Shown here: positions 18,850 through 26,489 of the stretch, piece after piece
Layout: every line of letters begins with the position of its first letter
How positions within the stretch are numbered: position 1 is the stretch's first letter
DNA from: Lachnospiraceae bacterium
GTDB lineage: Bacteria; Bacillota; Clostridia; Lachnospirales; Lachnospiraceae
Length of the DNA stretch: 64,000 nucleotides
Reading direction: 5' to 3'
Assembly (NCBI GenBank): GCA_017396555.1
Contig: JAFQLS010000004.1
Span: 36,746-100,745 of the forward strand
Notes under the pieces: model-generated
What the model was told of the DNA's origin: nothing
Databases searched by the model: none
Seen by the model: only the letters and a program-made list of their open reading frames with translations
Program-made: the position numbers and the translations under genes

Positions 18850-19578
18850 TTAATAGTCTAATCCCTTCCACTTATGTTCCTCATAAAAAACAACCTTTTC
18901 TATTTCTAAATCGTAATTGTACCAGATATATGCTCTCATAGCGTTTTTTTCTAATTTTTCTTTAACCTCGGCATCAGTTAATTTTTCATATTTAACGTTT
19001 ATTTCAGGTTCAATTGAATCAAGTAACTCAAATACTTTTGCTGAAAAATCATAAAATTCTACATCATCCGCTAAATTATCTGTATACATAACATATTCTT
19101 CATTATCCTTTTTCTCTGTATATCCAGAAGAAGTAGTTATAATTTGATTACCATCCACTTCCACAACTGATCTGTAAGTCGTATAATCTTCCACATAACT
19201 CTCTACCTCTCGAGGCACACCTGCTGTATAATATTCAAAAGCATGCATTTCCTTCACTATACCTTCATGTTTTACTAGCATACTTTCTTTATCATATCGT
19301 ATAACTTCCATAGGTATATCTTCATAACCATCTTCTCTAGAACTCAAAGTTACGATTCCCGTATCGTAATTATATATGTAATCATCGTAATACTCATACA
19401 CACCTACCGGATTACCACAGCTTACATAACAACCAAACTCACCTTTTTTATTAAACTCCATTATCTCTCCATGGTAAACCCATTCTTGTTCTATCAAAAA
19501 ATCAGGATAACCTTTTTTATCGCAACCTACAATAAAAATCATTGCTAATATAACCAAAATTAATTTTTTCTTATTCAC
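18850..19578 (-). CDS. Predicted lipoprotein, last gene of the DUF5717/DUF5716 cluster
   Basis: A 242-residue protein with a GTG start behind AAAGGGGG. The N-terminus is Lys-rich (MNKKKLILV) and hydrophobic, and ends in IFIVGC, a usable lipobox with Cys19, so it should be lipid-anchored on the outer face of the membrane. The mature part is rich in Tyr, Glu and Asp and looks like mixed beta strands with a C-terminal helical stretch. I do not recognise a family. It starts 18 bases after the coiled-coil membrane protein gene and is probably the last gene of that operon. Confidence 0.75.
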   Translation of the reverse strand: MNKKKLILVILAMIFIVGCDKKGYPDFLIEQEWVYHGEIMEFNKKGEFGCYVSCGNPVGVYEYYDDYIYNYDTGIVTLSSREDGYEDIPMEVIRYDKESMLVKHEGIVKEMHAFEYYTAGVPREVESYVEDYTTYRSVVEVDGNQIITTSSGYTEKKDNEEYVMYTDNLADDVEFYDFSAKVFELLDSIEPEINVKYEKLTDAEVKEKLEKNAMRAYIWYNYDLEIEKVVFYEEHKWKGLDY

Positions 19579-19596
19579 AACTTAATCCCCCTTTTA

Positions 19597-22928: not shown

Positions 22929-25900
22929 TTATATTATTTCAAATATTTCTTTTGAAAGACATTTGTTTAAATAGTAATCCTTGGTAAGCTCCCTTACAGT
23001 CGCTTCCTCTTTTAATTCCTTACATCTTAGTATATCATTAATCATTCCGTACGCAGTTCTTCCCGTAAAGACAATCTCATCACCAAGATAGTAATCTTTG
23101 CTCTCGGTTATATTAGTACCCTTTTCATTTTCTTCTGTAATGTAATATTGAATATTTTCTCCATAGAAAACAGTTATATCTTTTGTAAATACGCCACCGA
23201 AGCAATCTTGCATCTTGCATACCTGATATCCACTGTCATCAAAGTCATTTTTCATAGCATAATGAACATATACATCGCAATCAGGTGATGTTCTGTATTC
23301 AATAATAGCTCTATCACATACATTTCCCGGTAATTCAAACCATTTTATAAATAATTTAAAGAACTCAAAACAATAACCCTTGTCCAACAAATATTCCATA
23401 CAATATTTACATAATTCCTTTTGTTTATCACTCATATCTGATTTGCCACTCATATATTTTAAATATGCAGCCTTACACACATCATTAAGAATGTCATGCG
23501 AAACCTTCTGTATGCTAATTTCCCTTTCAAGCTGTGAAAAGTAATCATCATAAACAGGGATATCTTTAACAAAATACATATATGCAACATAGAAATAGTA
23601 TGCCTTCTTAACTACTTCTGTCTCTCCCTTAGATAAATACGAATCATATAATTTTACCAAATATCCAATCTTGGATTTACCAAATAAAATCTGAGCGATA
23701 AGCCTTTCTTCCAGCTCCCTGCTTTCAAATGAAAAATTCTTTGCGGTTTTCCACAATTCAATCATTTCCTTTGTTGTACTATTATAGTACCTGCATAGAT
23801 ATTCCAATACATTTTCATTATATTTCCCCTTTGAAAATGCATATCCTGCTACATCTGTAATAAAACCATCTTCCGCATCATTTACCATATACAAATATCT
23901 TGTTACAAACTTAACCAGCTTACGCGAACCAAGTCTCTGATAACCATATTTTTTCATAGCTTCATATGCATTAACATATAAACCTCTGACAATCATAAGT
24001 TCAATCACTTTATCTCTCGATGAGCCATCCAACTCAGACATTTCAATTGATACAAGGTATTCATCCAATTCATCACCATCATAATGTGTATAATAATATT
24101 CGATGATATCTCTCATAATCGCCTTGCAGAAATCATATCTAAATTCCGGTATATCCATTATATTTTTGAAGGTGCCAATTGTTTCATGCGTCGAATTGTG
24201 ATACCTTATAAACTGTTCGGCCGCACCCGCAATATAATATATATCATCATTACATTTATCATGACAAAGCTGTAAGAGCGAGTTATTATCTAAAAGCTTT
24301 CTTTCTTTAACATCTTCTGTTCTTACACATCTGTTGCCATACACATCTTCAAGAAGAATTACCGCATCTTCTGTAAATATTTCTATATTAGCTTTTCCAT
24401 CACGAAGTATGTAAGCTCTCTCAATATTTAATTCTTTATGAAGAACAATAATTCTCTGAATCTTTCTGTTCGGACAAGAAATCTCATATGTAGCTAAAAT
24501 ATGAGGGAGATTTTTTGCAATATCCTCTTTTATCATTGAACCTTGTAAAAATTCTCTATAAATAAGAGCCACATTTTTATTCATAACTCCCTTTGCAAGA
24601 TTCTCTATCGCAAAACGCTCCATATTAACCTTATAATTCTTATAAACATTTGGAATCCTATCCTTATTTGCAATTATATTTGCGTATAAAAGGCTTTCTC
24701 TGTAAAACAAAAGATTTCCATTATACACAAAATACATATATATCATATTTGGCAATACATCATTGTAATTTTCGTCAATTGAAAACATATAGTATTCATA
24801 TAAACGCGTAAGATTTATTTCCTTCTTTACACCTTCCGCATACCATTCAAAATATCTGTTACTTGTTATATTGCCTCTAATTAATATACTGCAAAGTGCT
24901 GTTAAGATATTTTTATCCTCAAATTTTTTGTATAGTGTAGCAAGACTTTTAAATAATAAAGGTCTGAAATTTTTTTCCATCATTGTAAGTTCCGCAACCT
25001 GGAATGCTAATTTTTGAGTTGTCATATCATGTTTACAGCCAAATAATATTACCTGTAATTCAAAATCATTAATTACACGAAGTAGCCCCGGATGTTTATT
25101 AAACACACTAAGTGCTTCATAATACATAAGAGGGCTCTTACATCCCTTTTTAAACTGCTCCTTTATTCGCGCCAATTTGAGACTGGCATTAGTCTCATAC
25201 GCATCATCCAAATATAAAAGTATCCATAAGATTTTCCACGAATCATAGCCATTTTCATAATATTTCTTTATCTTAGCAAATATATCACTTGTAAATCCTG
25301 CATCTCTTCTCTGCAACGTTCTGATATATAAGTAATAACAATATATTTCCAGATTATTATCTATATCATCCAGTATATTTTCTGCAACAGCACTAAGAAG
25401 CCATTCAGCTTCCTCTTCACGATCTCTCGTTATATATATCTGCGCCAATACAAGTTTAAGAAAATCATTATCATCATCAAATCCTCTTGCTCTTTCAATA
25501 AGTGCAAAGGATTCATCTGCCCAATTTTCAACACTACATCTTCTTGAACGAAGCTTTAGATACAATTGCATAAGATTATACATACATCTCTTTACTTCAA
25601 TACGCCCAATGTCATTTTCCGATGTATTATCTACACTAATTTGTAAAATAAGTTTTTGAAAGGTGGTAGAAAATGTAATCGTTCCATAATTCATTCCTGC
25701 ATGAAGCTTGCTTACATCTATTAAATATGTGAATTCATAATTACTTCCTGCAAAGTCCTCCGTAGTAATACGACTTTTATATTTAGATATAAAATCTCCC
25801 TGTACATGAACATCAATATCAATATACCCCCATGTATCTTTAGAGATAATAACCTTATCCCCATAGGAATCCTCTAATTTGTCATAATCTTTATTGCTCT

Positions 25901-26489
25901 CAGACAATGATATATTTATTCTTGATTTTTTATTTATTCCTATCAAAAATTCTTCCAATGCTTTGTGTACATTACTACTTTTTATAAGTCCGTCATACAA
26001 TGCCTGACCTGTGATATTTCCACGAAGGAATATATCCTTAAAGTTTTTTGACGAAAATAAACGTACTGCTTCATCATAATCAGTTTTAACTAAATTTGCA
26101 AAGTTAAACAGGTCATTTATTTCTCCTATGCTTGCCTTAACACTAGGGGTTGTAATTGTAAATGAAAATCCTATTAATGCTTCTCCACCACTACTTACAA
26201 TTACAAATTTGCCTTCAATTTTTTCATTTTCCTCTAAATATGTTGTATCAATTTCATATTTAATAACATTATTAGAAGATATAAACTGTGTATTGATAAC
26301 CTTAACAACACAATTTGATGAATATACTATTCCTTTTAAATCCCTGCCATCTTCTGAGTACACACAAAATTCGTCCGAAAAAATAGTTCCTCTTTCTATT
26401 TTTCTTTCAATAACTGCCTCCGAAACCTCGAGTGAAGGTGCATTATATTCAATTATTCCTCTCGATATTTTTCCAACTGTTTCTTTCAT
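22929..26489 (-). CDS. DUF5717 family giant protein, function unknown
   Basis: A 1186-residue protein, assigned to DUF5717 by its size, partner and sequence. No signal peptide or membrane helix was seen. The first 290 or so residues are beta-rich and seem to hold two Ig-like sandwiches. The middle (about 300-900) is an alpha-solenoid with TPR-like helix pairs (for example residues 325-420), and the last 150 residues are beta-rich again. The ATG has AAAGGGAA and lies 21 bases behind rarA. It is always plausible that it works with the DUF5716 protein directly downstream, but the job of the pair is not known. The local DNA has ordinary base use for the window. Confidence 0.8.
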   Translation of the reverse strand: MKETVGKISRGIIEYNAPSLEVSEAVIERKIERGTIFSDEFCVYSEDGRDLKGIVYSSNCVVKVINTQFISSNNVIKYEIDTTYLEENEKIEGKFVIVSSGGEALIGFSFTITTPSVKASIGEINDLFNFANLVKTDYDEAVRLFSSKNFKDIFLRGNITGQALYDGLIKSSNVHKALEEFLIGINKKSRINISLSESNKDYDKLEDSYGDKVIISKDTWGYIDIDVHVQGDFISKYKSRITTEDFAGSNYEFTYLIDVSKLHAGMNYGTITFSTTFQKLILQISVDNTSENDIGRIEVKRCMYNLMQLYLKLRSRRCSVENWADESFALIERARGFDDDNDFLKLVLAQIYITRDREEEAEWLLSAVAENILDDIDNNLEIYCYYLYIRTLQRRDAGFTSDIFAKIKKYYENGYDSWKILWILLYLDDAYETNASLKLARIKEQFKKGCKSPLMYYEALSVFNKHPGLLRVINDFELQVILFGCKHDMTTQKLAFQVAELTMMEKNFRPLLFKSLATLYKKFEDKNILTALCSILIRGNITSNRYFEWYAEGVKKEINLTRLYEYYMFSIDENYNDVLPNMIYMYFVYNGNLLFYRESLLYANIIANKDRIPNVYKNYKVNMERFAIENLAKGVMNKNVALIYREFLQGSMIKEDIAKNLPHILATYEISCPNRKIQRIIVLHKELNIERAYILRDGKANIEIFTEDAVILLEDVYGNRCVRTEDVKERKLLDNNSLLQLCHDKCNDDIYYIAGAAEQFIRYHNSTHETIGTFKNIMDIPEFRYDFCKAIMRDIIEYYYTHYDGDELDEYLVSIEMSELDGSSRDKVIELMIVRGLYVNAYEAMKKYGYQRLGSRKLVKFVTRYLYMVNDAEDGFITDVAGYAFSKGKYNENVLEYLCRYYNSTTKEMIELWKTAKNFSFESRELEERLIAQILFGKSKIGYLVKLYDSYLSKGETEVVKKAYYFYVAYMYFVKDIPVYDDYFSQLEREISIQKVSHDILNDVCKAAYLKYMSGKSDMSDKQKELCKYCMEYLLDKGYCFEFFKLFIKWFELPGNVCDRAIIEYRTSPDCDVYVHYAMKNDFDDSGYQVCKMQDCFGGVFTKDITVFYGENIQYYITEENEKGTNITESKDYYLGDEIVFTGRTAYGMINDILRCKELKEEATVRELTKDYYLNKCLSKEIFEII

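Follow-up and report, generated by a model that had tools for sequence, protein, structure and literature searches.

Several of the described systems nearest to the gene cluster reported here involve Hsp70 proteins. In the Hsp70/DnaK chaperone, exchange factors bind the nucleotide-binding domain (NBD) and open it through rotation of subdomain IIB, with GrpE contacting subdomains IB and IIB (sections of PMC10825016). Ssz1, as portrayed in parts of PMC7083937, is a lidless, non-hydrolysing Hsp70 whose beta domain takes part of the partner protein as a substrate of low affinity. Of the GTPase-centred neighbourhoods described by Kaur et al. (2020), ∼14% of one class have HSP70 and GrpE (portions of PMC7159879). 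Here we describe a cluster that includes a degenerate Hsp70 of the Pfam family DUF5716, found in a 64,000-nucleotide stretch of a Lachnospiraceae genome (contig JAFQLS010000004.1; hereafter the window), where five genes lie in a row on the minus strand at 18850-26489. We consider it probable that a dedicated multi-Hsp70/GrpE machine was inherited vertically and pared down to this cluster, and that the result now serves as a nucleotide-independent scaffold or client-holding complex.

Two of the window proteins are members of DUF5717 (PF18984, PF18983) and DUF5716_C (PF18980), families whose names carry no function; the matches (for both parts of DUF5717) exceed the curated Pfam cut-offs and lie far above chance. 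Across 5.39 million papers searched, DUF5717 goes unmentioned and DUF5716 comes up once, in a curcuma drug study. Among the papers on signature proteins, core genomes, Hsp70 clusters and conflict systems that were searched, the cluster was not found by title or abstract, and the terms Clostridia and Lachnospir are absent from the main text of a survey of DnaK duplication (PMC11019930). DUF5717 is nonetheless near-universal across the sampled genera of one large family, yet undescribed in the literature searched. The link of DUF5717 and DUF5716 to a multi-Hsp70/GrpE cluster is new here: neither that expanded cluster, present in related families, nor the loss of subdomain IIB from DUF5716 had been noticed in a first-pass annotation of the window, which had proposed that the five genes form one membrane system linking the cytoplasm to the cell surface.

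An expanded cluster in related families

Within the order, 71 of 146 genomes match DUF5716_C, many of them at two neighbouring places. From families other than that of the window we assembled 20 loci, some of them cut by contig ends. The full order, found in 13 of the 20, is DUF5717–A–GrpE protein–B–C–D–TPR, where A to D are Hsp70 paralogues and TPR is a tetratricopeptide-repeat protein; in one of the 13 (L108) D and TPR are split. Over all 20 loci the GrpE protein is present, by profile, in every one, Hsp70-C in 19, A and D in 16 each, DUF5717 in 15, TPR in 13, and a membrane-hairpin protein (see below) in 3.

DUF5717 is here often split into two genes of ∼400 and ∼900 amino acids (aa) and is elsewhere one longer open reading frame (ORF). 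The Hsp70s measure ∼559 aa (A), ∼460-530 aa (B, degenerate), ∼546 aa (C) and ∼691 aa (D, which in locus L105, at 5498-7573, has a C-terminal VWA domain in place of the lid); the TPR protein has ∼387 aa. The GrpE protein is ∼560-650 aa long, shorter in L108 and L116, and carries the GrpE domain at its end in both of the two proteins submitted to Pfam (L105, E 3e-13; L112, E 4e-12), the others having been found with a profile made from the L105 protein and its matches. That profile gives no match in the 41 Lachnospiraceae loci introduced below.

Set beside the Hsp70/DnaK and GrpE families (PF00012, PF01025), the expanded cluster is alike in possessing three motif-complete Hsp70s and a GrpE-domain protein. 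It differs in that A and C, judged by length, end after the beta domain where D has its VWA domain, so that the Hsp70s of the machine look lidless, and in that no J-domain gene was found in the part of the cluster tested. Specifically, no J domain was returned by Pfam for the L105 cluster proteins, the L106 hairpin protein or 10 flanking proteins of 6 loci, and a crude HPD-motif scan gave 7 matches, tested in part, none of them in what we would regard as a J protein. A J-domain partner may be encoded elsewhere in the genome.

The cluster or parts of it occur in Defluviitalea phaphyphila Alg1 (L140) and Petrocella sp. FN5 (L195), and also in many metagenome-assembled genomes labelled Candidatus Epulonipiscium or Defluviitaleaceae. 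In a wider set of 63 loci having the cluster or parts, the GrpE protein is present in 60. Among 131 genomes from other families of the order, DUF5717 occurs together with a DUF5716_C match in 54, DUF5716_C matches occur alone in 2, DUF5717 alone in 6, and neither in 69; these counts are uncorrected for kinship, and in some genomes the DUF5716_C match is Hsp70-C alone rather than B.

Linkage is not uniform. In the family coded f126 both DUF5717 and DUF5716_C are present in 13 genomes, on different contigs in 9; contig breaks may mask some linkage, and the neighbours in one f126 locus, L112, are plainly different genes. There unrelated HD-domain, NUDIX and acetyltransferase genes lie among those for B, C, D and the GrpE protein, an ABC transporter lies upstream, and DUF5717 is on another contig. 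In L123 Hsp70-C and Hsp70-D are separated by genes for two S41 peptidases, a BNR/sortilin-like protein and one serpin. In L108, from the sister family f125, A, B and C persist together with the hairpin gene. The GrpE protein there is short and both the Hsp70-D and the TPR gene are broken over two frames, a state that is possibly decay in progress or an assembly error.

Ancestry of DUF5716

The DUF5716 protein of the window (427 aa; 21631..22914, minus strand; PF18980, 307.4 bits) was compared with the paralogues of the expanded cluster together with its counterparts from the window's family, which we take to be Lachnospiraceae. For this purpose 41 family loci were used, the window and 40 fetched ones, picked for the presence of DUF5717 or DUF5716 with their neighbours ignored. 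When each DUF5716 was matched by BLAST to the four L105 paralogues, Hsp70-B was the best match for 37 of the 41, with Hsp70-C best for two and no match for two. The profile of the window protein aligns collinearly with that of 15 B proteins over 406 columns (99.9%, E 8e-33). In a tree of 75 of the 111 Hsp70 and DUF5716 rows, a branch with support 100/100 separates B and DUF5716 from two ordinary Hsp70s and from A, C and D. On its own side of that branch DUF5716 joins the B proteins of L106, L108, L121 and L122, at 100/97.

The position of valS agrees in part: the fetched stretch of 11 of the 41 family loci has it downstream of the cluster, as do L106, L108, L141, L142 and L195. On the BLAST matches, the profile match and the tree, descent of DUF5716 from the Hsp70-B line is well supported at the level of sequence. 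The Hsp70/actin fold that the first-pass annotation had recognised is specifically Hsp70 by descent. A cytoskeletal actin relative appears less likely: the DUF5716/B profile and the structure model match Hsp70s, and other matches may exist beyond those listed. With respect to FtsA and MreB, Pfam gives no match in the window DUF5716, and the listed fold matches are of Hsp70 type, though others may exist.

Absence of the ATP motifs, subdomain IIB and the lid

A structure model of DUF5716, built on an alignment with 56 of 63 Hsp70-B rows, has a predicted local distance difference test score (pLDDT) of 86.4 and keeps the actin/Hsp70 NBD fold. The first-pass annotation had taken the protein to lack a substrate domain. 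This does not hold: the model places a beta sandwich at residues 302-422, the position of the Hsp70 substrate-binding beta domain, the collinear match to B runs over 406 columns, and several fold alignments to DnaK and Ssz1 chains span residues 4-6 to 421-427. What is absent is the helical lid, the modelled chain ending just past the beta domain. DUF5716 thus appears, on the model, to keep a substrate-binding-type beta domain without a lid, and peptide binding is a prediction from it.

The nucleotide site is another matter. The window DUF5716 has no PF00012 (HSP70) match at E up to 1, and a search of its own genome lists none there either. The phosphate-2 glycines are missing, as the first-pass annotation had seen, with DYSREHYIYR standing where DLGGGTFDVS is expected; the phosphate-1 GTT and the first glutamate of EPxAA are missing too. 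Motif counts, from which four fragmentary Hsp70 rows were excluded, extend this to the whole set. Phosphate-1 GTT is present in 15/15 A, 16/16 readable C and 14/14 D proteins, and in 0/20 B and 0/40 readable DUF5716 proteins, the chosen start having cut off the motif in three C rows (L110, L111, L118) and one DUF5716 row (L079). For phosphate-2 GGGT the figures are 15/15 (A), 19/19 (C), 14/14 (D), 0/20 (B) and 0/41 (DUF5716).

The degeneration goes further than point loss. From phosphate-2 to the adenosine motif there are only 49-67 residues in the 41 DUF5716 proteins, against 122-141 in 20 B; the same spacing is 135 in C (n = 19), 142 in D (n = 14), 166-169 in A (n = 15), and 124-132 in two ordinary Hsp70s of the window genome. 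The missing stretch, lost in 41/41, lies at about residues 205-270 of that genome's DnaK piece and, by sequence, would correspond to subdomain IIB. We name it so on a DnaK numbering that we assume to be correct, combined with published ranges for IIB in E. coli. Those ranges are residues 255-272 and 276-302 (given in a portion of PMC10825016). The loss of IIB together with the cluster's GrpE gene fits, since exchange factors act by moving IIB. In sum DUF5716 is like Hsp70/DnaK in comprising an NBD and, on the model, a substrate-binding-type beta domain, and differs from it in lacking the ATP motifs, IIB and the lid.

These losses bear on two other readings. That DUF5716 has remained an actin-like protein, driven by ATP or nucleotide to polymerise or to cycle with DUF5717, draws on the actin/Hsp70 NBD fold kept in the model; given that both phosphate motifs are lost in every readable family sequence and that IIB is missing in all 41, we regard it as scarcely credible. 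The other reading is that DUF5716 resembles Ssz1 in the ribosome-associated complex (RAC), being a pseudo-Hsp70 on the translation or secretion machinery that passes nascent chains to ordinary DnaK. Ssz1 retains subdomain IIB. It also binds ATP (passages of PMC7083937), whereas DUF5716 has neither the ATP motifs nor IIB; neither the proteins of the L105 cluster nor the ten flanking ones gave a J-domain match, and nothing points to ribosomes. An Ssz1/RAC-like role is accordingly unlikely in our judgement. The two are alike in other respects: a lidless, non-hydrolysing Hsp70 with a beta domain that works alongside other chaperones (as set out in parts of PMC7083937). The neighbours differ, a J-protein partner there and DUF5717 and TPR proteins here, and we claim no common origin beyond that of Hsp70 itself. 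By analogy, Ssz1 may serve as the nearest working model for DUF5716.

A single GrpE match was found in the window genome, which is 85% complete. Its long Hsp70s are DnaK, fragmented at contig ends, and a second protein. The latter, a 566-aa open frame at G000:C6:24432-26096 with intact ATP motifs, groups with DnaK in the tree, apart from the cluster paralogues. A fifth, weaker Hsp70 match in this genome (59.7 bits) lies in a 335-aa frame.

A conserved trio in Lachnospiraceae

In a sample of 150 Lachnospiraceae genomes, one per genus, DUF5717_N is present in 147, mostly as one DUF5717 match each. Of the three negatives, one (G020, 67% complete) has DUF5716, and two (G029, G091) have neither at the thresholds used. 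At a laxer threshold of E 0.1, DUF5716_C gives sub-cut-off matches in 2 of 14 control genomes. A spread beyond the order was looked for and rejected. In a phylum sample DUF5717_N is found in 4 of 299 genomes, all of the window's own family, and in a class sample, searched with a profile that includes divergent relatives, matches occur in 11 of 291, ten in the same family and one marginal (E 3.8e-4, 17.9 bits).

DUF5717, DUF5716 and TPR genes follow one another on the same strand and in the same order in 41/41 family loci, a result that is conditional on the presence of DUF5717 or DUF5716/B and on a choice of loci that favoured long contigs. Freely varying neighbours are thus not seen for these three genes within their own family. 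Gaps exceeding 100 bases occur only in L074 (218) and L083 (133), and in L081 DUF5716 and TPR are fused in a single 690-aa ORF. In the window the gaps are 14 bases (DUF5717/DUF5716) and -1 base (DUF5716/TPR). Together with the co-occurrence outside the family, these observations uphold the proposal of one system for the core trio. Gene order, and the distributions of the hairpin and lipoprotein genes given below, define the conserved unit as the DUF5717-DUF5716-TPR trio with an optional membrane hairpin.

Near-universality also bears on the idea that the cluster derives from a conflict (defence) system, as what is left of one or as a domesticated version; the GAP1-N2 HSP70/GrpE neighbourhoods and the systems with CoCoNuT Hsp70-like proteins would be examples. 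The GAP1-N2 neighbourhoods of Kaur et al. (2020) are the closest precedent that we found: they have HSP70 and GrpE, a subset with a second HSP70-domain gene, and FNIII proteins fused to DnaJ or TPR (PMC7159879), features that recur here as HSP70, GrpE, a second HSP70-type protein and an FNIII-like protein with TPR. A parallel decay of the ATP site is described in a different context, for the Hsp70-like proteins of CoCoNuT restriction systems (portions of PMC11090510), and PADLOC returns one match, Hsp70-D to PDC-M61B (E 4.4e-7, 27 bits). Against this, the cluster is near-universal in its family, mostly with one match per genome; PADLOC gives no match for four window proteins (lipoprotein excluded), the GrpE protein or Hsp70-B; and for the proteins of the L105 cluster and 10 proteins that flank 6 loci Pfam reports neither a GTPase nor a GAP1 domain. 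The locus here thus differs from GAP1-N2 in being mostly single-copy and order-specific and in having no GTPase/GAP1 match in the proteins tested, and we judge a conflict origin to be quite improbable.

The neighbours of DUF5716

DUF5717 (1186 aa; 22929..26489, minus strand; PF18984, 1010.6 bits; PF18983, 290.4 bits) had been portrayed as a giant solenoid with Ig-like ends, a description borne out by two lines of work. Alignment of the N part reveals two Ig-like domains flanking a helical part. An AlphaFold2 model of residues 331-1186 reads solenoid, beta domain, solenoid, beta domain, the solenoid being of TPR type; its mean pLDDT is 82.4, and a predicted template-modelling score (pTM) of 0.45 leaves the mutual arrangement of the parts unsure. 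The model was limited to these residues as full-length alignments misplaced split N and C genes (checked in one alignment). A specific relative was sought without success, since profile and fold searches return mainly TPR, PPR and other repeat proteins, which are generic solenoids, and a profile search with the N part found nothing below E 0.15. We predict DUF5717 to be a cytoplasmic scaffold. The DUF5717 ORF of L099 (G544) is clearly shorter, at 853 aa, with a 385-aa ORF upstream, the only such case among the 41; the gene may be split there as in related families.

The window's TPR protein (277 aa; 20798..21631, minus strand) is recognised by Pfam TPR, its N-terminal part being conserved. It shares 31% identity with the 387-aa TPR protein of L105 over 191 aligned positions (E 4e-18), and by this sequence comparison it is apparently a shorter relative of the expanded-cluster protein.

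The coiled-coil protein (397 aa; 19597..20790, minus strand) has, by hydropathy scan and alignment, two adjoining hydrophobic stretches that make a central two-helix membrane hairpin, in line with the two membrane helices first reported for it. Its start is most likely the ATG at 20790, which gives a gap of 7 bases to the TPR gene. The gene is present at 21 of 41 family loci. Across the 150 genomes, 68 have matches, of which 3 with weak matches alone were left uncounted, so that a strong match is found in 65 and none in the other 85. In 60 of the 65 the hairpin gene shares contig and strand with DUF5717 and lies downstream, 2.9-3.7 kb from where the DUF5717_N match ends; of the remaining five, four have it on a contig other than that of DUF5717 and one has no DUF5717 row listed. 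The system is thus one with a membrane protein in 65 of 150 family genomes and an optional one, which only partly preserves the earlier notion of a membrane system.

The fifth gene encodes a putative lipoprotein (242 aa; 18850..19578, minus strand), recognised as an ORF with a hydrophobic start ending VGC, 18 bases beyond the coiled-coil gene. In 41 genomes including its own, the only other matches are a paralogue in the same genome and one marginal match among the 40 relatives (E 3.3e-4). The lipoprotein is local and no member of the conserved cluster, contrary to its inclusion in the system by the first-pass annotation. A trans-envelope complex joining cytoplasm to surface through this lipoprotein, as had been suggested, would account for the hairpin and lipoprotein genes sharing one run in the window. 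It sits poorly with the narrow distribution of the lipoprotein, with the 85 genomes that have no strong hairpin match, and with a hydropathy scan that finds no membrane segment in DUF5717, DUF5716 or TPR; we hold it to be very unlikely. The distant lipoprotein paralogue (31% identity) is at G000:C42:18769-19389.

A probable reduced chaperone machine

Reduction from a multi-Hsp70/GrpE ancestor, the reading we favour, could have proceeded as follows. The ancestor would have comprised a DUF5717 Ig/TPR scaffold, motif-complete Hsp70s A, C and D, a degenerate B, a long protein ending in GrpE, and a TPR protein; A, C and D would have been lidless by length, with a VWA domain at the lid position of D. 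On the line leading to Lachnospiraceae the motif-complete Hsp70s and the GrpE protein would have left the locus, and B would have lost subdomain IIB. DUF5717 would have become one gene, seemingly minus one Ig-like domain, and the TPR protein would have been shortened. What remained would be DUF5716 beside DUF5717 and TPR, with the membrane hairpin in nearly half of the sampled genera.

In the reduced complex DUF5716 may act as a static, nucleotide-independent adaptor, its frozen NBD offering a docking surface. By analogy with Ssz1, its beta domain may hold a segment of DUF5717 or of the TPR protein, or low-affinity client segments. DUF5717 would be the large frame that gathers these partners, near the membrane where the hairpin protein is present as an optional anchor; the complex may have a role in quality control. 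DUF5717 would be the frame in the related families too, there for three active Hsp70s, one with VWA in the place of its lid, and for a built-in GrpE. A more specific form of this proposal, which we offer tentatively as a genuine possibility, is that Lachnospiraceae have centred a near-universal core complex on a catalytically dead, IIB-less, lidless Hsp70 scaffold that works without nucleotide, GrpE or J protein, the survivor of an undescribed four-Hsp70/GrpE/VWA machine still extant in related families.

A number of points weigh against reduction from such a machine. DUF5716 is fast-evolving with several long branches, and the tree program flags a risk of long-branch attraction. The B proteins do not form a single clade, and only 36% of bootstrap trees recover DUF5716 as one, since the L108 B protein and the L081 protein fall next to it without a resolved order. 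Hsp70-B is not the best BLAST match for 4 of the 41 DUF5716 proteins, the DUF5716 model rests on B relatives at 15-23% identity, and valS does not appear in the fetched stretch of 30 of 41 family loci. The TPR and coiled-coil proteins could serve another function. Finally, with no J-domain gene found in the tested part of the expanded cluster, the ancestor itself may have been something other than a standard folding machine.

Hsp70/GrpE ancestry turns two families of unknown function into a testable chaperone question. The full machine, the intermediate in the sister family and the reduced core make up a natural series that bears on what an Hsp70 does minus its nucleotide cycle.

Other features of the region

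Neither the coiled-coil protein nor the lipoprotein matches a Pfam family above cut-off, and NCBIfam gives nothing over its cut-offs for any of the five proteins. Between the cluster and valS lie a T-box leader (18547-18781, minus strand; 115.3 bits) and a near-consensus promoter-like site (18826-18798, 11/12 matches), which together suggest that valS is a unit separate from the cluster; the promoter scan of the region as a whole is near chance (57 sites found, 52.2 expected), as is the terminator scan. Upstream of DUF5717 is a homologue of mgsA/rarA (26511..27887, minus strand; Pfam MgsA_C), which is a neighbour and not part of the core. The five genes do form a row of same-strand ORFs, as originally described, and the gap of 21 bases counted among theirs belongs to this upstream gene. 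mgsA is directly upstream in 4 of the 41 family loci (the window, L069, L081 and L102).

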